64,000 nt of DNA from assembly GCF_006715305.1 (NCBI RefSeq), contig NZ_VFMY01000001.1, positions 2,294,001 to 2,358,000 on the forward strand, given 5' to 3'. The translations under genes were made by a program, and so were the position numbers. Shown piece by piece: positions 1,663-14,775 of the stretch. The stretch is from Arthrobacter sp. SLBN-100 (lineage in GTDB: Bacteria; Actinomycetota; Actinomycetes; Actinomycetales; Micrococcaceae). Positions within the stretch are counted from its first letter, which is position 1, and every line of letters starts with the position of its first letter. Below the pieces are notes generated by a model, which worked only from the letters and a program-made list of their open reading frames with translations, did not search any database and was not told the origin of the DNA.

Positions 1663-2331
1663 CTACTGTTCAGGCAGCCGCCCGGCAAGTCCCCGGAGGG
1701 AGGGTTCCCGGCCCAGCTCCACATGGGCAAACGCCAGCGCTGCCGCAAGTTCGGCTCTGCCGTCATAGATCGCCTTGCATAGGCTTAGATGCTCTGCGCA
1801 CTGAACCAGGGGGTCGCGGTGCCCGGTCAGGGTAAAGAGCCACTGCATCCTGCCCAGGAGCGGCTTCATGGAGTACTCCAGCAATGCGTTGCCGCCCATC
1901 GAGACGATCTCTGCATGCAGGGCCGTGTTGCTCAGCGGGATTTGCGCGTGGTCGTGGCGCAGGGTCGCTTCTTCGGCCCGGTCCATCATCTGCTGGAGGC
2001 GCGCCGAGGACTCCCCCCGCGCGGCGGCCTGGGCGGCGAGCCGCGCGGCGAGGACTTCGAGGCTGAGCCGGACATCAAAGAGTTCGTTGACGTCCCTCAG
2101 GGTGATCTGCTTGACGGTGGCCCCGCGCCGCGGAGAGGTGTCAATGAAGCCTTCGGCTTCCAGCAGCTGGAGGGCTTCGCGGACGGGTACCCGGGAAACG
2201 TCCAAGGCCTGGGACAGCTCGCGTTCCCTAAGCCGGGAGCCGGGCGCGAAGTCACCCGAGATGATCAGCTCGCGGATCCGTGCCCGGGTAGCGTCAGCCG
2301 AGGACGCGGGTGAGTCCGCATGGACAGTCAA
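1663..2331 (-). CDS. GntR-family regulator with FCD ligand domain
   Basis: A 222-residue transcription factor of the FadR/FCD subfamily. It has an N-terminal winged helix with the recognition-helix segment [20 protein letters not shown] at about 40-60, followed by a helical FCD ligand-binding domain. The start is a TTG with a strong GGGAGG five bases upstream, and no better ATG is available. It is the last gene of a minus-strand run: amidohydrolase, cyclodeaminase, then regulator. FCD-GntR proteins commonly bind palindromes centred on GTATAC. Two such sites (4919-4932 and 6547-6556) lie in the promoters of this cluster, so it probably represses the cluster until the substrate or an intermediate is present. 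The ligand is unknown. Confidence 0.9.
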
Positions 2332-2373
2332 TGATGCCTCCCGTTGATTCCGGCGCCCTGCTTCGATGCCGCC

Positions 2374-3360
2374 TCAGTTATTCAGCTCCACATGGGTGCC
2401 GATCCCCTGGTCAAGTGCAGCGTCATACAGGAGCCGCCCGATCGCAAGGTCCTGCAGGCCGATACCCACCGAGTTGAACAAGGTTATGTCCTCATCCCCC
2501 AGACGGCCTGCTTTTGTCCCAGCCGCCACGTCACCAAGTTCTGCTTCCACATCCTCGAAGCCCATGGCGCCTTCCGTTACCGGGATGATCAGCCCCCCGG
2601 ACTTGGCCCTTGCTGTAGCGAGGCTGTCCACGAAAACCCGCGCCCGGACCATGCCCGCTGAGTCAACTTCCCGGTGGTCCGGCCGCGGACGGGATCCGAC
2701 GGCGTTAACGTGCAGTCCGGGCTGGAACCACTCCCCTTTGACCAATGGCTCAACCGCTGGCGTGAGGGTGCACAGCACGTCCGAGCCCTCGACGACCTCC
2801 CGCACGCTGGCGGCCCGCGTAATGTTCAGCCCGTAACAGGAAATTTCGTCGCAGAAGGCAGCGACGGTCTCAGTGGAACGGGACCACACCACCACGTTTC
2901 TCATTGGCAGCACGGCCAGCATGGCTTCCACATGGGCCACCGCCAAGGCGCCTGCCCCCACCAGCCCCAAGGTGGTGCTGCGGGGCCTCGCAAGGAGCTT
3001 CGTTGCCACCGCGCTGGCTGCCGCGGTGCGGACCCGGGTGGGAACTTTACCGTCCAGGATGGCCAGGGTTTCACCGGTCAGCTGGGAGACGAGCATGATG
3101 GTGGACCGCTGGGTAGGCAGGCTGGCCGCACCGTTGGACGGGATGTCCGCCAGCAGTTTCACTGACGCCAACTCCTCCGCTTCGGACAGCGCCGCCATCG
3201 GCAGGAACCTCGCATCCGAGGACGGGAGGAGGAGCGAATCCGGGGCAGGCTGGACGGCAGTGCCTCGGCTGAGCCCGGCAAAGACGCGTTCGACGGCGGC
3301 AATGGTCCCGGGCATGTCGGCCAGGGCCTGGAGCTCGGACGCTTTAAGGATCAGGGTCAT
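2374..3360 (-). CDS. Ornithine cyclodeaminase / mu-crystallin family protein
   Basis: A 328-residue NAD(P)-binding protein of the OCD/mu-crystallin family. The family includes ornithine cyclodeaminases, alanine dehydrogenases and ketimine reductases. Visible features are TRVRTAAASAVATK near 105 (the family's conserved substrate-binding arginine region), the Rossmann loop GLVGAGALAVAHVEAM near 130, and a C-terminal GIGLQDLAIGRLLYDAA segment. The start is taken at MTLILKASEL because longer versions would run into the upstream gene. It lies 85 bp after the exported amidohydrolase and 42 bp before the GntR regulator, so it is probably co-transcribed. In this setting it may reduce or cyclise an amino or imino product released by the amidohydrolases. 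The true substrate cannot be read from sequence. Confidence 0.88.
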   Translation of the reverse strand: MTLILKASELQALADMPGTIAAVERVFAGLSRGTAVQPAPDSLLLPSSDARFLPMAALSEAEELASVKLLADIPSNGAASLPTQRSTIMLVSQLTGETLAILDGKVPTRVRTAAASAVATKLLARPRSTTLGLVGAGALAVAHVEAMLAVLPMRNVVVWSRSTETVAAFCDEISCYGLNITRAASVREVVEGSDVLCTLTPAVEPLVKGEWFQPGLHVNAVGSRPRPDHREVDSAGMVRARVFVDSLATARAKSGGLIIPVTEGAMGFEDVEAELGDVAAGTKAGRLGDEDITLFNSVGIGLQDLAIGRLLYDAALDQGIGTHVELNN

Positions 3361-3445
3361 AGGGAATGGCTTTCTGAATGGAAGGGCGCGTTGGCCTTGG
3401 CGGGCAGGGCGGGCCGGATAACCGGGCCCCTGGAGGTCAGGCTGG

Positions 3446-4780
3446 TCAGAGGTCATTCCGAACAAGGACTCCCTGCGCCACCACGGCCCGGATTCCTTCC
3501 AGGGCGGAGCCGCTGGCCAAGGGATCCGAGTCCACAATGATGGCGTCCGCGAAGGAACCGCGCATCAACCGGCCGGCGTTTTCACTCCAGCCGAGCAGCG
3601 CGGCGGCATTGACTGTCGCGGCCCTCAGGGCGTCCAGCGGCGAAAGCCCGGCCTCACTCAACAGACGCACTTCCGTGCCGATCGGTGTCACGTCTGATCC
3701 GAAGGAGTCCGTACCCGCAACGACGGTCACGCCGGCATCATGAGCAGCTTTCACGGCTGCTTTGATGATGGGGGTGTACTCCTTGCCGCGGGCGGCAAGG
3801 ATCGGGTTGGACGAGCCCGCCATGCTGGTGATGGCGTCCATGGTCGGCGTGAAATACGTCCCCTGGCTGGCCATCCGGGAGATGGTCTCTTCGCTGACAA
3901 AGACGCCGTGCTCGATGCTGCGCACACCGGCCCGGACCGCGCCGTCTATCCCTTGGGCACTGTAGGCATGGCACAGCACGCCCGCGTTGCTTGCGGCCTT
4001 GACCACGGCGGAGAGCTGATCGTAGTTGTAGACCAGCTCGCGGGGATCCTGCTCCGGCAGGCCCGCGCGGGGGTTGGCCCTCGTCTTAATCACCTGCGCG
4101 CCGCGCTTCAGGTTGATGCGGGTGAGGTAGGCGAGGTCGCCCGGTTCCGTGACTCCCCCCGTCAGGGAAGCCAGGGGTGCAAGATCCGGGTCGGCGAGGA
4201 GCGAGTCCCCCAGTTCGGGTGAAATGAACAGGCCGGCCGGGCTCATCCGCGGCGAAGCGCCGGCGGCCCAGGCAGGCAGGGCGGCCAAGGCGACGTCCTG
4301 GTAGAAGCTGCTCGAACCGCTCCTGACGCTGGTTGCTCCGCCCTGCAGGATGGCGCGCGCATCAGACAGCGCGTTCGCATGGACGTGCACATCGATGAGG
4401 CCGGGAACGACCCAGCGACCGGAGGCATCCACCATGAGGGCACGGCCGGCAAGTGCGGCGACTGCACGGCGTGTTTCCTCACGGGTACCCACCGCGCTGA
4501 CCTTTCCTCCTTCCAGCACCAGGACGCCGTCTTCGACGGCACCGCCTGTCTTGGGGTCCACGATGGTGCCGCCTTCGATGATCATTGGCGGCGACGCAGG
4601 ACGCGCATGGTAGCCGGTGCTTGTTGCGTTGCCCTCGGCTTTAGCAGCCGGGGCATTTCCCAACTGTGCGGCAAGGCTGGCCACTGAGATTCCGGCGAGC
4701 GCGGCTGCCCCCGCGAGAATGCCGCGGCGCGGAACTGCGGCGGAAGGGAGGGCAGCGGGGGTGTGGTCGTGCAGGCACAT
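3446..4780 (-). CDS. Tat-exported metal-dependent amidohydrolase
   Basis: A 444-residue amidohydrolase of the imidazolonepropionase/prolidase-like branch. The start MCLHDHTPAAL is chosen because GGAG lies 7 bases upstream. The N-terminus carries a twin-arginine signal (RR at 18-19 followed by a hydrophobic stretch rich in Ala/Gly), so the enzyme is likely exported. The metal-site motifs are in order: DVHVHAN (HxH) after a PGLIDVH strand, VIKTRANP with a candidate carboxylated lysine, CHAYSAQG, SIEHGVF and GTDSFG (final Asp). It is the first gene of an operon with the cyclodeaminase and the GntR regulator, and a GntR-type palindrome lies 139 bp upstream of its start. The substrate is probably a cyclic amide or dipeptide-like compound, but this is inference. 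Confidence 0.88.
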   Translation of the reverse strand: MCLHDHTPAALPSAAVPRRGILAGAAALAGISVASLAAQLGNAPAAKAEGNATSTGYHARPASPPMIIEGGTIVDPKTGGAVEDGVLVLEGGKVSAVGTREETRRAVAALAGRALMVDASGRWVVPGLIDVHVHANALSDARAILQGGATSVRSGSSSFYQDVALAALPAWAAGASPRMSPAGLFISPELGDSLLADPDLAPLASLTGGVTEPGDLAYLTRINLKRGAQVIKTRANPRAGLPEQDPRELVYNYDQLSAVVKAASNAGVLCHAYSAQGIDGAVRAGVRSIEHGVFVSEETISRMASQGTYFTPTMDAITSMAGSSNPILAARGKEYTPIIKAAVKAAHDAGVTVVAGTDSFGSDVTPIGTEVRLLSEAGLSPLDALRAATVNAAALLGWSENAGRLMRGSFADAIIVDSDPLASGSALEGIRAVVAQGVLVRNDL

Positions 4781-4918
4781 GGTTTTCTCCAAAGGAAAGG
4801 GCCCGGCAGCAGGAGCGCGGGGTCCGGTGGGATCGGTGACTGTCATGCTTTTGGTGAGGGTCGGGTGAGCTTCCCCCACTACGCGCTGGTGGCCCTCGTG
4901 TCCATCCACGGTAGCCCA

Positions 4919-4932
4919 TTTGGTATACCAAA
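4919..4932. promoter_or_regulatory. Probable GntR operator, perfect palindrome TTTGGTATACCAAA
   Basis: A perfect 14-bp palindrome upstream of the exported amidohydrolase operon. The same core TGGTATACCA recurs at 6547-6556 in the divergent promoter of the neighbouring genes. GTATAC-centred palindromes are typical targets of FCD-type GntR regulators, and one is encoded in this cluster. Binding has not been shown. Confidence 0.72.
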
Positions 4933-4970
4933 CCAATAGTAGACGGCAACGGCGTTACGAATAGAGTGCG

Positions 4971-6458
4971 TCATGAAACGGCTGCCGGGGTAACGATGTC
5001 CGCCTGCGGATAGGCAGGCGGAAACAGCTCGTCCGCTTCCCGGCGCCGGTGGTCCCGTTCTCCGTAGGCAGCCTTCATCTGGTCGAAGAGGCGCTGGCCC
5101 TCGGCCCGAAGCGCCGCGAGGTCGACGCCGGGCAGGGCGCCTTCCACCACTACCGGCCGCCCGGCCACGAAAGTGTCCGTCACTTGGCGCGCCGTACCGT
5201 TCAGCACCAGGGTGCGCAGCGGATCTTCAACGACCCCGTCCGCGAAATGGCCCAGCGAGACCACCGTGATGTCCGCCTGCATGCCGGGGGCAAGCCTTCC
5301 CAGGTCCGGCCGCCCAAGGGCCTTGGCCCCGCCAAGGGTGGCGGCGTCGAAGTAGTCAGTCAGGGCGCCGGCGCCGGGCCTTTCCTCGACCAGCCGGGTC
5401 AGGTGCATGCCCGCATCGATGCCGCGGACCAGGTCCGGCGGGAAGGAGTCGGTGCCCAGGCACAAGTTGACGCCCGCCTCGCGGAAGCGGTCGAACGAGA
5501 CAAGCTGCTTCTGGTAACGGAACGACGTCAGGGGGCAGTGGACAATGCTGACCCCATGGCGCGCCAGCAGGTCCAGCGGGCCTCCGGGCCCCGCCGCGGC
5601 AGGGTCCTTGGCGTCGATCACCACGCCGTGCGGGATGAGGAGCCGTGTACCGAAAAGGCCGGTGGATTCGAGGAGCTCCAGCACGCCGCGTCCGGCAGAG
5701 CGCTGCAGCAGCCCGTCTTCCAAGGGTGACTGGAGGCAGTGCAGCCGGACGAGCGCGTCGCGGTCGCGGGCAATCCGGGCAGTCTCCCGCATGAGGTTTT
5801 CGGACAACGTCTCAATGCGGCACGGCAGCAGGACGCCGGTGATGAGCGGGTCCGCGAGGTCGACAGCATAGTCCAGGAAGTCCTGTGCGTCCTGCAGTCC
5901 GGCAACCCCACGGGCTTCATCGAAGTGGACCTCGCGGCCGCCTGCGTCAGTGGTGACATGGACTCCCGAACGGTAGGCCGGCCCGAGGTAGCCCCGGAGT
6001 CCGATCCGCCGGCTGGTCCCTGCCATGTCCACGAGTTCATCGAGGCCTTCAGCCCAGGAACTGTGGATCTCCGAGGCGATCGGCATGTAGGTGGTAATGC
6101 CGTGCAGGGCCAGCTGCGCCAGCGCGAATTCCCGGACCTGAGCGCGCTCAGCCCGGCTGAACACGTCCCTGCGGCGGTTGGCGAAGTAGTCCTCGGACCA
6201 CAGATGGCCGGCCGCAACGTCGGGCGAAGGCCATGAGTCGAGGATCAGGTGGTCAATGTCGGCGAGGGCATCCAAGTCGATCAGGCCGGGCATGACAAGG
6301 CTCTTGCCGTAGTCGCGTTCCTCATCAACCGGGCCACTATAGCCCCGCCCCACAAAAACGATGACATCTCCTTCGAACACGACTTCGCCGTCCTCAACGA
6401 GGGTGTGCCGCTTTCCATCAAAACCCAGAACGTACCGGGCTGAGATTTTCGTGTACAT
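4971..6458 (-). CDS. Atz/Trz-type amidohydrolase with altered HxH site
   Basis: A 495-residue amidohydrolase of the chlorohydrolase/deaminase type, which hydrolyses C-N or C-Cl bonds on N-heterocycles. The start MYTKISARYV has an AAGGAGG four bases upstream. Later metal ligands are present: VRLHCLQ, LIPHGVV and GTDSFPPD. The usual HxH after the first strand is replaced at 61-70 by DLDALADIDH. The usual metal pair is therefore changed; this may be a subfamily with a different metal geometry. The C-terminus has the beta-sandwich return MQADITVVSLG. It is divergent from the DUF3100 gene and shares that gene's promoter region with its GntR palindrome. A catabolic role with the neighbouring amidohydrolases is likely, with substrate unknown. 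Confidence 0.86.
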   Translation of the reverse strand: MYTKISARYVLGFDGKRHTLVEDGEVVFEGDVIVFVGRGYSGPVDEERDYGKSLVMPGLIDLDALADIDHLILDSWPSPDVAAGHLWSEDYFANRRRDVFSRAERAQVREFALAQLALHGITTYMPIASEIHSSWAEGLDELVDMAGTSRRIGLRGYLGPAYRSGVHVTTDAGGREVHFDEARGVAGLQDAQDFLDYAVDLADPLITGVLLPCRIETLSENLMRETARIARDRDALVRLHCLQSPLEDGLLQRSAGRGVLELLESTGLFGTRLLIPHGVVIDAKDPAAAGPGGPLDLLARHGVSIVHCPLTSFRYQKQLVSFDRFREAGVNLCLGTDSFPPDLVRGIDAGMHLTRLVEERPGAGALTDYFDAATLGGAKALGRPDLGRLAPGMQADITVVSLGHFADGVVEDPLRTLVLNGTARQVTDTFVAGRPVVVEGALPGVDLAALRAEGQRLFDQMKAAYGERDHRRREADELFPPAYPQADIVTPAAVS

Positions 6459-6546
6459 CGTGCCTCCTTGCACCTGCCGCCGGGGATCACTCCGGCCGGC
6501 TACAAAATGTGACTTGCCTCTCACAAGGTATGAGTATACAGTCTTT

Positions 6547-6556
6547 TGGTATACCA
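6547..6556. promoter_or_regulatory. Probable GntR operator TGGTATACCA in a divergent promoter
   Basis: This is the second copy of the palindrome found at 4919-4932. It lies between the Atz-type amidohydrolase (minus) and the DUF3100 gene (plus). A GAGTATAC half-like sequence lies about 15 bp to its left. One regulator bound here could control both directions. Confidence 0.7.
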
Positions 6557-6623
6557 GAACGACATTCCCAAACTGCGGGATGTTCTTGTTCCTCTCCCTG
6601 TTCCCCCTCGAAAGGCCTGCGTC

Positions 6624-8081
6624 ATGCGCAATGAAGCGAAGACCACAGGCGGTACCGCGTCCGTCCTGGTGGACGCGGTACCGTCGCGTACTTTCCGTGC
6701 CCGACCCGTCCTGTGGTTTGCGATGATCGCGATCTCCACCGCCGTCTGTGCCGTGGCCATCATGATCGGAACCCACAAGTTCCACCTCGGCCCGGCCGCG
6801 ATCGTCCTGATGCCAATCCTGTGGACCGTGCTCATCGGCGGCTTTCTTGGAGTGCAGAGATGGAAACCAATCGGGGGGCGTGCCCGTGCAGTGTCCACCC
6901 ACCTCATGGACGTCTCCATCGTGTTCTTCCTGGCGGGCCTCGGCACGCAGATCGGCCCGTCCCTGACGAAGTTCACCGGCATCGGTCCTGCGATCCTGCT
7001 GCAGGAGGTGGGCCACGTGGTGGGCACGGTGATCCTGGCCCTGCCGGTCGCTGTTGCGCTTGGCCTGGGCCGCACTGCGGTCGGCGCCACCTGGTCGATT
7101 GACCGCGAGTCCTACCTTGCCTTCGCCATTCAGCGCTTTGGCGTCCGCTCCCCCGAGTACCGCGGCGTGTTCGCTGTGTGGGTTCTGGGCAGTGTGTTCG
7201 GCGCCGTGTTCATCTCGCTGCTGGCAGGCCTTCTGGGGGGACTGGACTTCTTTGACCCGCGGGCCCTCGCGCTGGGACTTGGCCTCGGGTCCGCCTCCAT
7301 GATGCTCGGCGGCGTGGGTGCCCTGTCCATCCTGTACCCGGAAATGGCGGGCGAGATCATGGCCCTCGCTGCCCTCTCCAACCTGGTGACCAACATCGTG
7401 GGCTTCTACGCCGGCGTTTTCATCGCGCTACCGATGTGCCAAAAGCTCTACAGGATGTGGTCCCGTATCTTCGGACGGGACGACCTGGGCCGCCGTGTCC
7501 GCCGCGGAGCTCTCCTTGGCGCCGCAGCCGGGACCCAAGCAGGCGGGTCCGTCCAGGCACACCGGGGCGGCGCGGTCACGGAGCCGGATGAGTTGTCCGG
7601 CACTGACACCGTGGACGTCCACGGCATCGAAGCGGACCCCGTTGTTGTCCGCTCCCCCAAGACGTGGCTCGCCGCGTTCGCCGCGACAGGAGCGGCCGGC
7701 GTCCTCCTGAACGCGCTCGGCACGGGATCAGTGCGGCCGCTGGATGTGGTCGGCGTGACAATCCTTCTGGCACTTACTGCCATCGCCCTGGTTCTCGCCA
7801 AGCTCGTCAGAGCAGTTCCGTCCAGCATCTGGGTCCTGGCCCTGGCAACGATTGCCTCCGCGACGTTCCTGCCCGTCGGCCCGTTCATTGCCTCCACTAC
7901 CCAGAACATCAACGTCCTCTTCGCAGGCCTGCCCATGATCGCCCTTATCGGCATGTCACTGGGCCGAGATGTGAAGGCGCTCCGCTCACTGAGCTGGAAG
8001 ATCATCATCGTCGCCCTGATGACCTTCACCGCGAGCTTCGTCGCCGCGGCAGTCATTGCGCAGCTCGCCTTCCATTTCTAG
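6624..8081 (+). CDS. DUF3100-type multi-pass membrane protein
   Basis: A 485-residue integral membrane protein with about ten hydrophobic segments. Its first segment begins near RPVLWFAMIAIS. A conserved-looking central block, GLGLGSASMMLGGVGALSILYPEMAGE, is followed by a hydrophilic loop of about 80 residues and a second membrane half. I recognise it as the DUF3100 family, an uncharacterised set of probable transporters. The start MRNEAKTTGG is preferred because a GAAAGG lies upstream and the earlier in-frame start sits in the operator. It is followed 105 bp later by a cytosine-deaminase-like gene in the same direction. Its place among amidohydrolases suggests uptake of their substrate, or export of a product. 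Confidence 0.8.
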   Translation: MRNEAKTTGGTASVLVDAVPSRTFRARPVLWFAMIAISTAVCAVAIMIGTHKFHLGPAAIVLMPILWTVLIGGFLGVQRWKPIGGRARAVSTHLMDVSIVFFLAGLGTQIGPSLTKFTGIGPAILLQEVGHVVGTVILALPVAVALGLGRTAVGATWSIDRESYLAFAIQRFGVRSPEYRGVFAVWVLGSVFGAVFISLLAGLLGGLDFFDPRALALGLGLGSASMMLGGVGALSILYPEMAGEIMALAALSNLVTNIVGFYAGVFIALPMCQKLYRMWSRIFGRDDLGRRVRRGALLGAAAGTQAGGSVQAHRGGAVTEPDELSGTDTVDVHGIEADPVVVRSPKTWLAAFAATGAAGVLLNALGTGSVRPLDVVGVTILLALTAIALVLAKLVRAVPSSIWVLALATIASATFLPVGPFIASTTQNINVLFAGLPMIALIGMSLGRDVKALRSLSWKIIIVALMTFTASFVAAAVIAQLAFHF

Positions 8082-8185
8082 CCTATGCTGCGGCAGGGAA
8101 GACGCCGGCGCGTAGGATCGGTGCCTTCCCTGCCGTCGTAACACCACAGACCGTTCACCGCACAGCACTGCAGAAGGAATCAGGC

Positions 8186-9418
8186 ATGCTCATCACCAAT
8201 GTCCGTTCGTGGGGCGGGGACGCCGTAGACCTGGAGATTAGCGGGGGACGGATCTCGGCCGTCCACGCGGCCGGGACCGGCGCCGTAACTGATGACGCTG
8301 ACGGCCAGAAACTGGACGGGCGCGGCCGAATTGCCCTCCCGGCATTCACGGATGTGCACGTCCACCTGGACTCGACCCGGATCGGGCTGCCGTTCCGGGG
8401 GCACACGGGCTCGCCGGGCGTGTGGAACATGATGCGCAATGACCGGGAAAACTGGCGCGGCACCCCCATCCCCTACCCTGATGTGGTGGCGGGGACGCTG
8501 GAACGGATGATCGCCCGGGGCACCACGCGCGTCCGTTCCTACGCCCAGATCGACGTGGACTGCAAGCTTGAGCGCTTCGAGGCAGTCATGGCCGCGAAGG
8601 AGCGCTTTGCCCGCGCGGCGGACGTGGAGATCATGGCTTTCCCCCAGGCCGGCATCCTGCTGGAGGAAGGCACTGTCCCGCTGCTCGAGGAGGCATTGCG
8701 GGCGGGGGCCACGACTATCGGCGGCATCGACCCCTGCCAGCTGGACCGCGATCCGGTGCGCCATTTGGACATCGTGTTCGGCCTGGCTGAGAAGTACGGG
8801 GTCGACGTCGATATCCACCTTCACGAGCCCGGGCAGCTTGGGGTCTTCAGCGCGGAACTTGTCTTCGAACGCACCCGCGCACTGGCCATGCAGGGACGCG
8901 TGTCGCTGTCCCACGCTTACGATCTGGCCAACGTCCACCCCGATGTGACAGCCCGGATCATGGAGCAGATGGCCGAACTGGACGTCGCCTGGGCAACGGT
9001 GGCCCCGGCAAGCGGCGGCACACAGTTCGACCTGGCCCAGATGACCGCGGCCGGGATCCGCGTGGGTCTTGGCGAGGACGGCCAACGGGACTACTGGAGC
9101 CCGTACGGTAATTGCGACATGCTGGACCGCACCTGGCAGTTGGCCTTCACCCACCGGCTGCGCAAGGACCGGCTGATCGAGCACTGCGCGGCGATCGCCA
9201 CCGTCGGAGGCGCCTCCATCGTGGACCGCACGGTTCAGCGCCTCACCAGTACGGATGACCGGCCCGGCCTCACTGTTGGAGACGCAGCAAATATCGTTAT
9301 GGTGGAGGGCGAAACCGTCACCAGCGCCGTCATGGACCGCGGCACGGACCGTACCGTCACCCACAACGGCAGGCTGGTTGCCGACGGGTTGGTTGTTCTT
9401 CCGGAACTGACCGCGTAA
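8186..9418 (+). CDS. Cytosine deaminase-like amidohydrolase
   Basis: A 410-residue amidohydrolase of the CodA/cytosine deaminase branch, whose members deaminate or open pyrimidine-like rings. Motifs in order are FTDVHVHLD (HxH), DIHLHEPG (His), LSHAYDL (His), and the signature GQRDYWSPYGNCDMLDR with its conserved Asp and DML segment, which is very characteristic of CodA-type enzymes. The start MLITNVRSWG has GAAGGA about 8 bases upstream. It is the second gene after the GntR-box promoter, behind the DUF3100 membrane protein, and ends 42 bp before a palindromic repeat facing the convergent MFS gene. Cytosine itself is not assured: the group also acts on isocytosine, creatinine-like and triazine-derived rings. 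Confidence 0.88.
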   Translation: MLITNVRSWGGDAVDLEISGGRISAVHAAGTGAVTDDADGQKLDGRGRIALPAFTDVHVHLDSTRIGLPFRGHTGSPGVWNMMRNDRENWRGTPIPYPDVVAGTLERMIARGTTRVRSYAQIDVDCKLERFEAVMAAKERFARAADVEIMAFPQAGILLEEGTVPLLEEALRAGATTIGGIDPCQLDRDPVRHLDIVFGLAEKYGVDVDIHLHEPGQLGVFSAELVFERTRALAMQGRVSLSHAYDLANVHPDVTARIMEQMAELDVAWATVAPASGGTQFDLAQMTAAGIRVGLGEDGQRDYWSPYGNCDMLDRTWQLAFTHRLRKDRLIEHCAAIATVGGASIVDRTVQRLTSTDDRPGLTVGDAANIVMVEGETVTSAVMDRGTDRTVTHNGRLVADGLVVLPELTA

Positions 9419-9512: not shown

Positions 9513-10850
9513 CTACATTTTGGCGGGCTCAGCCACCTTCAGCGGCTCGATCTTGCCCATCACAAACAGGTAGTTGGCGGCGCCGACCAGGGCCACACCA
9601 CCGATGACGGCGAGCGGCGCCACGAAGGAGCCGGTCTGGTCCACCAGGACGCCGATCAGGATGGGGGTGAAGATGCCGGCAAGGTTGGAGGCGAAGTTCT
9701 GAAGGCCGCCAATGGAACCCACATGCCGTGAGCTCGGGGCAACGTCGGCCGGAAGGGACCAGATGCCCGTGGCCGCGACGGTCAGGCTGGAGTAGGCAAC
9801 CGAGAGCAGGGCCAACGCCATCCAGGCCTCGGGCACCAATGCCGCGAACATGATGACCGAACCGCCCGCCAGGCCGCCGGCGATGGCGGTCTTGCGAACC
9901 CGGGTCACCGAGACGCCGCGCTGGACGGCACGGTCGGCAACATAGCCGGCCAGCCAGCCGAATGCCACGGCGCAGATGCCGGGAATGGCGCCAAAGAAGC
10001 CCAGTTTGAGCAGGTCAAAGCCCCGCTCTTTCACCAGGTAGCTCGGGAAGAACGTGATGAAGAAGTAGATGGCGCTGTTGAGGCAGAAGAATCCGAACAT
10101 CATGCTGAGGACGGTGCGGTACTTGAAAAGCGACCGCCACGGCAGCTTCGCTGCGCTCTCGTCGTCACTGGCGGCACTCCGCGCACCGCCTTCCCGGATG
10201 TAGGCAACCTCGGCGGCGTCCGCCGTCGGGTGCTCTTCCGGGCTGCGGTAGACCTTCCACCAGACCGCGGCCCAGATGAGGCCCGCGACGCCGATGATGA
10301 TGAATACGGCGTGCCACGAGGTGAACGCAACGATCAGGGTAACGATCGGCAGGGCGATGACCGCTCCCACGCGGGAGCCCGAATCCCAGATGCTGGTGGC
10401 AAATGCGCGCTCCCGGACGGGGAACCACGTGGCCACTACCTTGGCGGCAGTACTCGGAGCGGGGCTCTCACCCACCCCGAGCAGGAACCGGGCAGCAAAG
10501 AGGGACCAGAAGTTCGTGGCAGCGGCGGTGACCATGGTGAAAACGGACCACCATACGGCGGCCAGGGAGAACGACCGGCGGGGGCCCACCTTGTCGACGT
10601 ACCAGCCGGCTGCCAACTGGCAGAAATCGTAGGCCCAGAAGAAAGCGGCGAAGATCAGGCCCTGCTGGGTGGCTGAGAGCTCGAAGTCCTTGCCCATGAA
10701 CGGCAGCGCCACGCTGAGGCTGGAACGGTCCAGGTAGTTGATGCTCAACCCGATGAAGGCGAGCCAGATGATCATCCAACGTTTACGGGTCATGGTGCGG
10801 GGGGCCTTGGGGGAATTTTTAGGGGCAAGCCTACTGCCTAGAGCAGTCAT
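9513..10850 (-). CDS. MFS transporter, sugar-acid (ACS) type
   Basis: A 445-residue major facilitator permease with twelve predicted membrane segments. An early segment GLSINYLDRSSLSVALPFM closely matches the anion:cation symporter (glucarate/galactonate/hexuronate) group. The cytoplasmic loop after helix 6 is the usual hydrophilic linker (EEHPTADAAEVAYIREG). The start has AAAGGAGA six bases upstream. It is divergent from the GntR regulator, and the operator region between them closely resembles the one before the sugar-acid enzymes. It most probably imports the aldonate or uronate broken down by the genes at 11948-15971. Confidence 0.9.
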   Translation of the reverse strand: MTALGSRLAPKNSPKAPRTMTRKRWMIIWLAFIGLSINYLDRSSLSVALPFMGKDFELSATQQGLIFAAFFWAYDFCQLAAGWYVDKVGPRRSFSLAAVWWSVFTMVTAAATNFWSLFAARFLLGVGESPAPSTAAKVVATWFPVRERAFATSIWDSGSRVGAVIALPIVTLIVAFTSWHAVFIIIGVAGLIWAAVWWKVYRSPEEHPTADAAEVAYIREGGARSAASDDESAAKLPWRSLFKYRTVLSMMFGFFCLNSAIYFFITFFPSYLVKERGFDLLKLGFFGAIPGICAVAFGWLAGYVADRAVQRGVSVTRVRKTAIAGGLAGGSVIMFAALVPEAWMALALLSVAYSSLTVAATGIWSLPADVAPSSRHVGSIGGLQNFASNLAGIFTPILIGVLVDQTGSFVAPLAVIGGVALVGAANYLFVMGKIEPLKVAEPAKM

Positions 10851-10928
10851 ACGGTCTCCTTTGACGTAAACACGGGCTTTGGGCGCAGTGGCACGGGGAC
10901 GGCCAGGCGACGGGTTTTAAGGGGGAAT

Positions 10929-10960
10929 GATCGTATAGGAATTATGACAATCATATATGG
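10929..10960. promoter_or_regulatory. Operator region for the sugar-acid GntR regulator, site 1
   Basis: The segment contains TCGTATAGGAATT and ATCATATA. The same 13-mer TCGTATAGGAATT and a TATATGATT recur at 11881-11912 upstream of the dehydratase gene. Both sites flank the regulator gene and lie in the two promoter regions it would be expected to control. The region is AT-rich compared with its surroundings. Confidence 0.65.
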
Positions 10961-11074
10961 AAAGTGATCCAGGACAAGTGCAGGGTCCGAAAAACTTCCC
11001 CACCGCGACGAAACGGGCCGGTGGCTTATGATTCCCACAGCGACTCCGGCCACCCATGCAAAGAGGTAAAACGC

Positions 11075-11800
11075 GTGCCCCCACGTCAACCGTCCGATAC
11101 GTCCCGCACGAAAGCGGCCGTTACCGACGTCTACTCCGCCATGCGGACGTCCATCCTCAATGGTGAGATCGAACCCGGAACGCGGATCAACATCGACGCG
11201 GTTTCCCGCAGCATGGGCGTGTCACAAACGCCCGTCCGGGAGGTGCTCCAGCGGCTGGAGGGTGACAACCTCGTGGTCTACACACCGGGCCGCGGCTACA
11301 GCACCACTCCCCTGCTCGGACTGGACGAACTGCGCTCCTTGTTTGAATTCAGGCTGCTGGTTGAGCCGTGGGCTGCCCGGGCGGCAGCAGTGGACCGGCT
11401 GGCCAACCCCGCCCGTGCACTGGAAAAGGAACTCACCGCCTTCCAGGAAGTGATGCGGGGCGGGCAGGATCTTCGGCAGGACCTCGTTGCTCACGACACC
11501 CGCTTTCATGACACCATCCTGGCGGCAGCCGGAAACCCGGTGGTCCGGCATGCGTTCGCCCAGACCCACTGCCACCTGCACACCTTCCGCCTGTACCCGG
11601 CCGACGTCGACGGGGCCATCACGGTAGCGGAGCATTCAGCAGTCAGGGAGGCAATTCTGGCCTGCCGGCCCGAAGCGGCGGAGGAGGCGATGGCGCAGCA
11701 CATCAGAAACTCCTTCACTCGCTTTGCCCAGGCCTTCGAGGGAACTGTTGATCTTGAGCCGCTCGAGGAGGGCGGACCGCCCAGGACCCGCATCGTGTGA
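11075..11800 (+). CDS. GntR-family regulator (FCD) of sugar-acid cluster
   Basis: A 241-residue FCD-type GntR protein. The winged-helix domain includes VSRSMGVSQTPVREVLQRLE at about 40-60. The helical FCD domain contains the HDTRFHDTIL and HSAVREAIL histidine segments that usually hold a metal and a carboxylate ligand. The GTG at 11075 (VPPRQPSDTSRTK) is preferred, with AGAGG upstream; a longer reading frame extends into the operator. It lies between the MFS gene and the catabolic operon, has matching AT-rich boxes on both sides and is followed by its own terminator. It probably responds to the transported sugar acid or its keto-deoxy derivative. Confidence 0.88.
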   Translation: MPPRQPSDTSRTKAAVTDVYSAMRTSILNGEIEPGTRINIDAVSRSMGVSQTPVREVLQRLEGDNLVVYTPGRGYSTTPLLGLDELRSLFEFRLLVEPWAARAAAVDRLANPARALEKELTAFQEVMRGGQDLRQDLVAHDTRFHDTILAAAGNPVVRHAFAQTHCHLHTFRLYPADVDGAITVAEHSAVREAILACRPEAAEEAMAQHIRNSFTRFAQAFEGTVDLEPLEEGGPPRTRIV

Positions 11801-11810
11801 CGTGAATGAG

Positions 11811-11838
11811 TGCCCCGGCTTCAGGCCGGGGCATTTTT
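11811..11838 (+). terminator. Rho-independent terminator after GntR gene
   Basis: TGCCCCGGC and GCCGGGGCA form a 9-bp GC-rich stem with a 5-base loop, directly followed by seven T residues. It begins 11 bp after the regulator's stop codon and is the clearest classical terminator in the window. Confidence 0.92.
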
Positions 11839-11880
11839 TTGCCCCACTTCTGCACCTGCCCCTTGATCTGCGTCACACTT

Positions 11881-11912
11881 CCTATATGATTATGAGGATT
11901 CGTATAGGAATT
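11881..11912. promoter_or_regulatory. Operator region for the sugar-acid GntR regulator, site 2
   Basis: It contains CCTATA and TATAGG as inverted arms 16 bp apart, overlapping TATATGATT and the 13-mer TCGTATAGGAATT that is also present at 10931-10943. It lies 36 bp before the start of the dehydratase operon, a position suited to repression. Confidence 0.68.
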
Positions 11913-11947
11913 GCCCTCACTCCTCAGATTGCAGAGAGAAGAACAGC

Positions 11948-13294
11948 ATGCCTTCCATTACTTCCATCCACACCCAGGACGTCCGCTTCCCCACGTCCCT
12001 GGAGCTCGATGGCTCCGACGCGGTCAACGTTGACCCGGACTACTCCGCCGCCTATGTGGTCATCCGCACCGACGCGGGCGATGAAGGACACGGCTTTGTG
12101 TTCAGCTGCGGACGCGGCAACGAAATCATCACCCATGCCATCGACTCCTACGCCGCCCTCCTGCGCGGCCGCGAGATCGATGAGCTCATTTACGACCTGG
12201 GCAACGCATCAAAGCGGCTCATCCACGATTCACAGCTGCGCTGGCTGGGCCCGGAGAAGGGCGTCACCCAGATGGCGGCGGGTGCGTTGGTCAGCGCTCT
12301 GTGGGACATCCGGGCCCGGCGTGAGAACAAACCCCTGTGGCTCCTGCTCAGCGAAATGCCCGCGGAGGAAATCGTCGACGTCGTCGACTTCACCCATATC
12401 CGCGACGCCCTCAACCCACAGCAGGCCCTGGACATCCTCCGGGCCGGCGAAGACGGCAAGGCCGCCCGGATCGCCGCGCTCAAAGCGGACGGCTACCCCG
12501 CCTACACCACCTCTCCCGGCTGGCTGGGCTACAGCGACGAAAAGCTGGTCAGGCTGAGCAAGGAAGCAGCAGCGGACGGCTTCGCCATGATCAAGCTCAA
12601 GGTGGGCGGCGACATCAATGACGACCGCCGCCGCATGGCCCTGGCCCGGCAGGCAGTGGGTGACCTGCCCATCGCGATTGATGCCAACCAGCGGTGGGAG
12701 GTCTCAGAAGCCATCGAATGGGTGAACCAGCTGGCCGAGTTCAACCCGTACTGGATTGAAGAGCCCACCAGCACGGACGACATCCTGGGCCACGCGGACA
12801 TCCGCAAGGGTGTTTCCCCGGTCCGGGTTGCCACCGGTGAGGCCGTTGCCAGCCGCATCGTGTTCAAGCAGCTTCTCCAGGCCGGCTCCATCGACGTTCT
12901 CCAGCTGGATTCCACCCGCGTCGGCGGCGTCAACGAGAACATCGCCATCCTGCTGCTCGCTGCCAAATTCGGCGTCCCGGTGTGCCCGCACGCCGGCGGG
13001 GTGGGACTCTGCGAGCTCGTCCAGCACTTCTCCTTCTTCGACTACGCGGCCATCACCGGCAGCCAGGACGGCCGGATGATCGAATACGTGGACCACCTGC
13101 ACGAGCACTTCGCCGAGCCCGTCCGCATCACCAACGGCCGCTACGCTGCCCCGCAGCTGCCCGGCACAGGCGCAGAAATGTTCAGCGCCTCACGGACCCG
13201 CTGGGAATTCCCGGGCGGGGCCGGCTGGGCGGAAGTAGGCAACCGCGCCGCCGTCACCGGCGCCCAGCTTGCCCAGTCGGGAGGCACCCGATGA
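11948..13294 (+). CDS. Enolase-superfamily dehydratase, L-fuconate/D-arabinonate type
   Basis: A 448-residue mandelate-racemase-like dehydratase that matches L-fuconate dehydratase over its length. Visible elements are MIKLKVGG (catalytic KxK region), [18 protein letters not shown] and RVATGEA (metal-ligand strands), [22 protein letters not shown] (catalytic His loop), and a C-terminal [12 protein letters not shown] typical of FucD. L-fuconate and D-arabinonate share stereochemistry, and enzymes of this type can act on both. The two downstream genes are of the 2-keto-3-deoxypentonate to 2-oxoglutarate type, so D-arabinonate (or a related pentonate) is the more likely in vivo substrate. It is first in a tightly packed three-gene operon. 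Confidence 0.88.
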
Positions 13295-14775
13295 CCACCG
13301 GCGTGGAAAAGCTGGCCGCCGTCGTCGAGGCCGCCCACGCCGCCTTCGGAAAAGCCCGCACGGCGGATCCCTTCACCCGGGCAGCGTGGCTGGACGCCGT
13401 GGCGGCAGGCCTGGACAAGGATGCCGACGCGCTGGTGGCCCTCGCGCAACAGGAAACGCACCTGGCCGAGGCGCGGCTCCGCGGCGAACTGACGCGCAGC
13501 ACCTTCCAGCTTCGACTCTTCGCCGACGAGATCCGGCGCGGCGAGCACTTCGACGCCACCATCGACCACGTGGATCCGGAATGGGGCATGGGGCCGCGGC
13601 CTGACCTGCGCCGGTACAACGTGCCGCTCGGCGCGGTGGGAGTCTTCGGCGCCTCCAACTTCCCGTTTGCCTTCAGCGTGATGGGCGGCGACAGCGCCTC
13701 GGCGCTGGCTGCCGGCTGCGCCGTGGTGCACAAGGCGCACGACGGGCACCTGCAGCTGGCGCTGCGCACCGCGGAGATCGTCATCGCGTCCCTCGACGCC
13801 GCCGGTGCGCCGTCCGGCCTGTTCTCGCTCGTTACCGGGCGGGCCGCCGCGGAGGCCCTCGTTGACCACCCCCTGGTCAAGGCCATCGGCTTCACCGGCT
13901 CGACGGCGGGCGGCCGCGCCCTGTTCAACCGCGCCGCCGCGCGGCCCGAGCCCATCCCCTTCTTTGGTGAGCTCGGCGGCATCAACGCCGTTTTCGCGAC
14001 TGAAAAGGCCTGGGCCGCCCGCGCCGAGGAGATCATTACCGGTTACGCCAACTCCTTCACCCTGGGGATGGGCCAGTTCTGCACCAAACCGGGGCTGCTG
14101 TTCATCCCGGCCGGGCACGCGGACGCGGTTCGGGCGGGGCTGGACCAGGCCCTGGCAGGCTTCACTGCTGCCCCGCTGCTCAGCGGGCGCCTGCACGAAG
14201 GGTACGCCGGTGCCGTGCGCGGGCTCAGCGGTATGGAGGGAGTGGAGGTACTGGTTGAGGGCGATTTCGCCGAGGCGCCGTCACCCACCGTGCTGCACAC
14301 CTCCGCGGCCGCGGTGCGCCGCGATCCTTCCATCCTGCGGCAGGAGATGTTCGGGCCCGCGAGCCTCATTGTGGAGTACGGGGACGAGTCGGAGCTTCCC
14401 GCTTTGGCCGGACTCCTGGAGGGCCAGCTCACCACTACCCTGCAGGCGGAAGCGGACGACGACGTCTCCGACTTGGCCGAACGGCTTACCGATATCAGTG
14501 GCCGGGTCCTGTGGAACGGCTGGCCCACGGGCGTTACCGTCAGCTACGCGCAGCACCACGGCGGACCGTACCCGGCAACGTCGTCGAACACCACGTCCGT
14601 GGGAACTGCCGCCATCCGGCGTTTCCTGCGGCCCGTCGCTTACCAGTCCTTCCCGGCGGACCGGCTGCCGGAACCCCTGCAGGACGCCAACCCGTGGGGT
14701 GTGCCGCAGCGTATCGACGGCGAGTGGCACCGGCCGGAGGCAGCGCCGGCTACGGCGGGCGGTGATGTGAAGTGA
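13291..14775 (+). CDS. NADP-type 2,5-dioxovalerate (ketoglutaric semialdehyde) dehydrogenase
   Basis: A 494-residue aldehyde dehydrogenase of the alpha-ketoglutaric semialdehyde dehydrogenase subgroup. It shows [18 protein letters not shown] (cofactor-binding start), [26 protein letters not shown] with the catalytic-region Glu, and [11 protein letters not shown] with the catalytic Cys. The start ATG overlaps the dehydratase stop by four bases, indicating translational coupling. It would oxidise 2,5-dioxopentanoate to 2-oxoglutarate as the last step of a Weimberg-like route. Enzymes of this subgroup also serve glucarate, hydroxyproline and xylonate pathways, so it does not fix the input sugar. 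Confidence 0.9.

Follow-up and report, generated by a model that had tools for sequence, protein, structure and literature searches.

A 64,000-nucleotide window of the 4.94-Mb genome of Arthrobacter sp. SLBN-100 (Micrococcaceae; contig NZ_VFMY01000001.1, positions 2,294,001 to 2,358,000) contains a cluster of six genes arranged as two divergent groups (Table 1). The leftward group comprises, in order, an Atz-like amidohydrolase (AHatz), an amidohydrolase with a twin-arginine translocation (Tat) signal (AHtat), an OCD/mu-crystallin-family enzyme (OCD), and a GntR regulator (GntR1); the rightward group consists of a DUF3100 protein and a CodA/AtzC-like amidohydrolase (AHcod). A previous sequence-only reading of the window had placed these genes together, and both their positions and their Pfam families agree with it: GntR plus FCD, OCD_Mu_crystall, three Amidohydro_1/3 proteins, and DUF3100 (283 bits against a cut-off of 27). 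We refined the starts of AHtat and AHatz to the first ATG. The same reading proposed a single catabolic route for a nitrogenous ring or cyclic amide, with an extracellular first step, import, cytoplasmic deamination or ring opening, and NAD(P)-dependent processing.

Table 1 Genes and putative operators of the cluster, in window coordinates.
Feature	Position	Strand	Basis
GntR1, FadR-type (FCD) regulator, TTG start; proposed repressor	1663..2331	-	Pfam GntR 68 bits, FCD 57.9 bits
OCD/mu-crystallin-family NAD(P) enzyme, reductase-like	2374..3360	-	Pfam 223 bits; nearest solved relative delta1-pyrroline-2-carboxylate reductase
AHtat, twin-arginine-signal amidohydrolase, dipeptidase/carboxypeptidase-like; accessory of one clade	3446..4780	-	PDB matches 9kov, Cc2672 arginine carboxypeptidase
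TGGTATACCA, proposed operator of AHtat-OCD-GntR1	4921..4930	.	Between AHatz and AHtat; conservation
AHatz, PRK06151-family amidohydrolase-fold protein lacking HxH, with HxxQ for HxxE	4971..6458	-	NCBIfam; motif rows
TGGTATACCA, proposed operator of the divergent AHatz and DUF3100-AHcod transcripts	6547..6556	.	Genome count; conservation
DUF3100-B, predicted elevator-type secondary transporter	6624..8081	+	Pfam; structure model; AspT/CitS-like fold
AHcod, CodA/AtzC-like amidohydrolase, motifs of the active site intact	8186..9418	+	Sequence matches; motifs in 33/33 rows

DUF3100 is present in 43 of 295 Micrococcaceae genomes, and the 50 stretches surrounding its genes were sorted by best tblastn match into two types, A and B. 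Type B, to which the gene in the window belongs (DUF3100-B), is found in 24 genomes, each of which encodes AHatz (E 1e-60 or better), compared with 9 of the 271 others (Fisher 3e-28, kinship between genomes ignored). Within 9.5 kb of DUF3100-B, AHatz is found in 21 of these genomes, AHcod in 18, a GntR1 relative (identity 33% or more) in 15, OCD in 13, and AHtat in 4. Ten individually named loci, which overlap the 50-stretch set by two genomes, display AHatz and AHcod in every case, GntR1 and OCD in nine, and AHtat in seven. A search for AHatz across the phylum returned 2 of 396 genomes, including its own, too few for a comparison of gene neighbourhoods.

The palindrome TGGTATACCA occurs twice in the window (0.02 expected), once in each of the two promoter regions, as the sequence-only reading had observed. 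These are its only exact copies in the whole genome, where the reversed pattern occurs three times. The site between the divergent genes begins 77 nt upstream of DUF3100, and ~90 nt separate its end from AHatz; the palindrome before OCD persists in L006 and L008, two loci that lack AHtat. Exact copies are present in 24 of 43 loci of the B/AHatz type (36 sites) versus 0 of 27 loci holding only the type A paralogue, and the best of 29 control palindromes of the same composition reaches 2 of 43. With up to one mismatch the palindrome is found in 41 of the 43, the controls averaging 5.8, and in 27 of 32 loci such a copy is no more than 300 nt away from where DUF3100-B begins. Most exact copies have a T to their left and an A to their right (0.85). 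The set of 43 omits L083 and L086, whose genomes are already represented by L005 and L011, and the distant AHatz loci L113, L114, L115, L117, L120, L122, and L123; L116, L118, and L119 (~41% identity) were retained because of further cassette genes. Of the seven distant loci, two show the palindrome with no more than one mismatch. Like the co-occurrence counts, these figures ignore kinship. FadR-type GntR proteins bind palindromes of this kind, and co-location and conservation point to GntR1 as the putative binder of TGGTATACCA.

Given the shared neighbourhood, the co-occurrence, and the conserved palindrome, it is well supported that the GntR-OCD-AHatz-DUF3100-AHcod locus forms one co-regulated unit. 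The sequence-only reading had allowed that the genes would be unrelated neighbours if their homologues were rarely adjacent elsewhere or the palindrome were absent from their promoters; the homologues do keep together, and the palindrome recurs in the promoters of relatives. Several observations nonetheless weigh against the cassette model set out below. Next to three DUF3100-B genes AHatz is missing, being encoded elsewhere in those genomes; about half of the 24 genomes lack OCD and GntR in the neighbourhood, and 20 lack AHtat there. When one mismatch is tolerated, the palindrome reaches 5 of 27 type A loci as well, and the worst control reaches 22 of 43, some controls being close to the true site. 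Because OCD, GntR, and AHtat are variably absent, the pathway as drawn is not fixed. Gene order and the presence of these three genes differ among genomes, as among unrelated neighbours, but we regard that explanation of the six genes as highly improbable: co-occurrence, neighbourhood, and the common palindrome contradict it for AHatz, AHcod, and DUF3100-B, and it is least excluded for AHtat.

AHcod matches PDB entry 6nbo (E 6e-71), AtzC (3e-38), and CodA (7e-24), and its nearest NCBIfam model is PRK05985, for which it scores below the cut-off (369 versus 408). Like these members of the amidohydrolase superfamily, it keeps the HxH, HxxE, His, and Asp elements as well as a pocket Gln and Trp. 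The four elements are intact in all 33 AHcod rows that reach 350 aa, a 94-aa fragment having been excluded; 27 of the rows have SYAQ, SFAQ, or TFAQ where the relatives have THVD. By these motifs AHcod appears catalytically intact, and it points to a small N-heterocycle, cyclic amide, or amidine as substrate. The ring or cyclic-amide compound of the sequence-only reading is a conjectural part of that reading; the Dpp-type importer of the relatives described below would suit a peptide-like or N-acyl compound too. Creatinine, hydantoins, pterins, triazines, and hydroimidazolones were considered as substrates, and none of them has support in the present data.

AHatz fits the NCBIfam PRK06151 chlorohydrolase family (660 bits versus a curated cut-off of 416) and is predicted to adopt the amidohydrolase fold. 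It differs from 8-oxoguanine/isocytosine deaminase and TrzN, which we take to be of the 'cog0402 type', in lacking HxH and in carrying Gln in place of the catalytic Glu. The HxH at the end of the first barrel strand is missing from all 36 AHatz rows (two genomes counted twice), which read DLDAL in 35 cases and DLNAL in one; 119 of 120 database relatives read DAL or NAL here, the remaining one having no N-terminus. The fifth-strand HxxE reads HxxQ in the same 36 rows and in 119 of the 120 relatives, the other being truncated. The canonical metal and acid/base residues are thus missing from AHatz, a feature that could not be recognized in the sequence-only reading. Several sources name the family '8-oxoguanine deaminase', 'N-ethylammeline chlorohydrolase', or 'chlorohydrolase', labels that probably mislead, since the residues characteristic of those enzymes are absent from it. 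A sister of AHatz at L128:14903-16339 (29% identity) keeps HxH but has HxxQ and may represent a stage on the way to losing the active site.

AHatz and AHcod could be ordinary successive hydrolases like AtzB and AtzC, with AHatz being metal-dependent through substituted ligands such as Asp63, His240, His277, and Asp337. We hold this to be a serious possibility, somewhat short of even odds. The change of HxH to DAL, which turns the second His into Leu, and of HxxE to HxxQ throughout the 36 rows argues against it, as does the Asn that replaces Asp63 in one row. In TrzN, the homologous Glu241 is reported to be the proton donor (PMC4356373).

The absence of HxH and Glu would also fit a non-catalytic pseudoenzyme that complexes with, stabilizes, or regulates AHcod. 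Among 13 proteobacterial plasmid stretches (L045-L049 were picked since both match lists pointed to one place), AHcod adjoins AHatz in 11, in L128 by tblastn only, and wherever both genes of the pair are annotated (n = 10) they overlap by 1-16 nt, in keeping with such a partnership. Operon overlap is, however, common among successive enzymes, the two genes are divergent or apart in Micrococcaceae, and AHatz has no AHcod nearby in L113-L115, L117, L120, L122, and L123. We consider a pseudoenzyme partner conceivable but a rather tentative proposal.

The structure model of DUF3100-B (mean pLDDT confidence score 79.7) contains short helix pairs at residues 151-171 and 400-426 and matches an AspT/CitS-like fold, with the AspT exchanger as best match. 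The fold matches and the helix pairs agree with the inverted repeats and broken or reentrant helices of CPA/AT elevator transporters, so DUF3100-B is predicted to be an elevator-type secondary transporter. The likeness to AspT, CitS, and other CPA/AT transporters is one of fold, with no sequence relationship detected, and this counts against the cassette model. A DUF3100 profile searched against PDB sequences gave a globin as best match (E 0.0045), which we take as chance, and hhalign comparisons with three AspT-locus proteins did not rise above reversed controls, apart from a single weak value (A2 versus AspT2, E 0.003, probability 10%).

Elsewhere, the AHatz/AHcod core adjoins SBP5/Dpp/Opp genes of ATP-binding cassette (ABC) systems (e.g. 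L050, L107, L108, L110, and L112). On a 61-row AHatz tree, midpoint-rooted, with L013, L014, L083, L086, and L135 left out and long branches for L128, L127, L103, and L110, the DUF3100 label must have changed nine times or more on well-supported branches; L102, with DUF3100, and L112, with an ABC system, are sisters with 100/100 support. None of the 13 proteobacterial plasmid stretches has a DUF3100 match, and the 10 annotated ones carry ABC genes in 10 cases, a flavin reductase in 7, and an Asp/Glu racemase in 6. Because of the predicted fold and this exchange with ABC importers, DUF3100-B probably imports the compound that the Dpp/Opp-type systems of its relatives import, which lends support to the import step of the sequence-only reading. 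Export of a product, or substrate/product exchange as in AspT, would agree with the best fold match and with the occurrence of exchangers among secondary transporters of this fold. We nevertheless judge it unlikely, as the solute-binding-protein-dependent ABC systems that replace DUF3100-B in relatives are importers; a few genomes (three tree rows) have both DUF3100 and ABC genes near AHatz, which likewise counts against it.

In two ABC-type relatives (L050:13851-17081 and L107:36-2165), genes for a major facilitator superfamily (MFS) transporter and a GlcD-like FAD oxidase flank a further TGGTATACCA site and for that reason may belong to the same regulon.

The closest solved relatives of OCD are delta1-pyrroline-2-carboxylate reductase (E 7.5e-57), alanine dehydrogenase (1.8e-50), and, more distantly, ornithine cyclodeaminase (6.8e-24). 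It resembles the first of these, as well as mu-crystallin (2.5e-45), over nearly its full length, consistent with the ketimine reductases, but scores under every listed NCBIfam cut-off of the ketimine-reductase/mu-crystallin group. Since it also falls below the listed cyclodeaminase cut-offs (e.g. PRK08291, 167 versus 408) and lies closer to reductases, we rejected the earlier designation 'cyclodeaminase'. AHtat resembles Xaa-Arg/Xaa-Pro peptidases of the Cc2672 type (E 3e-30) and ochratoxinase (3.5e-19), and reaches 178 bits with an NCBIfam Xaa-Pro dipeptidase model whose cut-off is 500. A twin-arginine motif with an N-terminal hydrophobic stretch, PRRGILAGAAALAG, is recognizable by eye in the window and in all 10 fetched AHtat rows, two of which come from one genome and all of which share PRRGILAG with the window's protein. 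AHtat is thus predicted to be exported by the Tat system. Given its presence near DUF3100-B in 4 of 24 genomes and in 7 of the 10 named loci, an extracellular first step is not a general feature of the system. The route proposed by the sequence-only reading is partly supported, with AHtat as the accessory of one clade.

Taken together, these results favour a substrate-inducible import-and-hydrolysis catabolic cassette, to which we assign a probability of roughly two in three. The grouping, shared palindrome, conservation, domain content, and motif loss are read from sequence, and the two folds are predictions. In the proposed mechanism, GntR1 would act as a FadR-type repressor at TGGTATACCA in both promoter regions. 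A small nitrogenous compound would enter through DUF3100-B and be hydrolysed by AHcod, most likely through cleavage of an exocyclic or ring C-N bond, with AHatz acting alongside through a rewired site or as a non-catalytic partner. The OCD-family enzyme would then reduce an imine or ketimine, or oxidize the resulting amino acid. In one clade, exported AHtat may first release the compound extracellularly from an amide or peptide. GntR control, amidohydrolases, and a secondary importer are known kinds of part. In the literature searched, mostly outside subscription journals, we found neither this gene combination nor the DUF3100 fold nor an HxH-less AHatz family, and the articles searched in full text, again mostly outside such journals, held no mention of DUF3100 or PF11299. 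A broader evolutionary proposal is plausible, if not quite probable: strong selection would have maintained the PRK06151 family despite the loss of HxH and of the catalytic Glu, the family would work alongside an intact CodA-like enzyme, either as its partner subunit or by means of a novel active site, and its pathway importer, DUF3100, would be a new elevator family repeatedly swapped with a dipeptide-type ABC system.

To the left of the cluster, two glycine riboswitch aptamers (Rfam RF00504, 40.9 and 64 bits) lie side by side at 1338-1544 on the minus strand, and the gene downstream of them looks gcvP-like by eye. To its right, 9513-14775 holds an MFS transporter, a second GntR, an MR/MLE-family dehydratase-like gene, and an aldehyde dehydrogenase, and looks like a separate sugar-acid pathway. 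We excluded this block from the unit, as it contains no exact palindrome and is kept in one of the ten named loci (L010), a count affected by L006 and L012, whose sequence ends soon after AHcod. L008:12900-20030 and L105:12640-17760 share GntR, MFS, dihydropyrimidinase-like (by eye), and Asp/Glu-racemase-like genes near DUF3100-B.

A second DUF3100 gene, of type A, lies ~13 kb upstream of the cluster (L013:4436-10560, G000:C1:2276436-2282560), where it follows an RpiR regulator, a hydroxyisobutyrate-dehydrogenase-like gene, an aldehyde dehydrogenase, and an M20 peptidase. Every one of 30 type A stretches has an M20 peptidase gene nearby; 24 also have RpiR, 16 an aldehyde dehydrogenase, and 11 a hydroxyisobutyrate-dehydrogenase-like gene. 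No identity limit was set for these counts, which include distant aldehyde dehydrogenases. We rejected the type A operon as part of the same regulon, given the absence of the exact palindrome from all 27 A-only loci and the RpiR genes of the 24 stretches. It directly adjoins the B unit in L003, L004, L012, L060, and L061, and a metabolic link between the two may exist. On plasmids of Bartonella (L053:7935-9193), E. coli (L054:7881-9155), and Nitratireductor (L055:7953-9256), DUF3100 is split into two adjacent genes.

The locus gives the DUF3100 family a predicted fold and two sets of partners, an M20 peptidase for type A and AHcod/AHatz for type B. Type B has a dedicated putative operator, and the substrate of DUF3100-B is therefore testable by induction and knockout.
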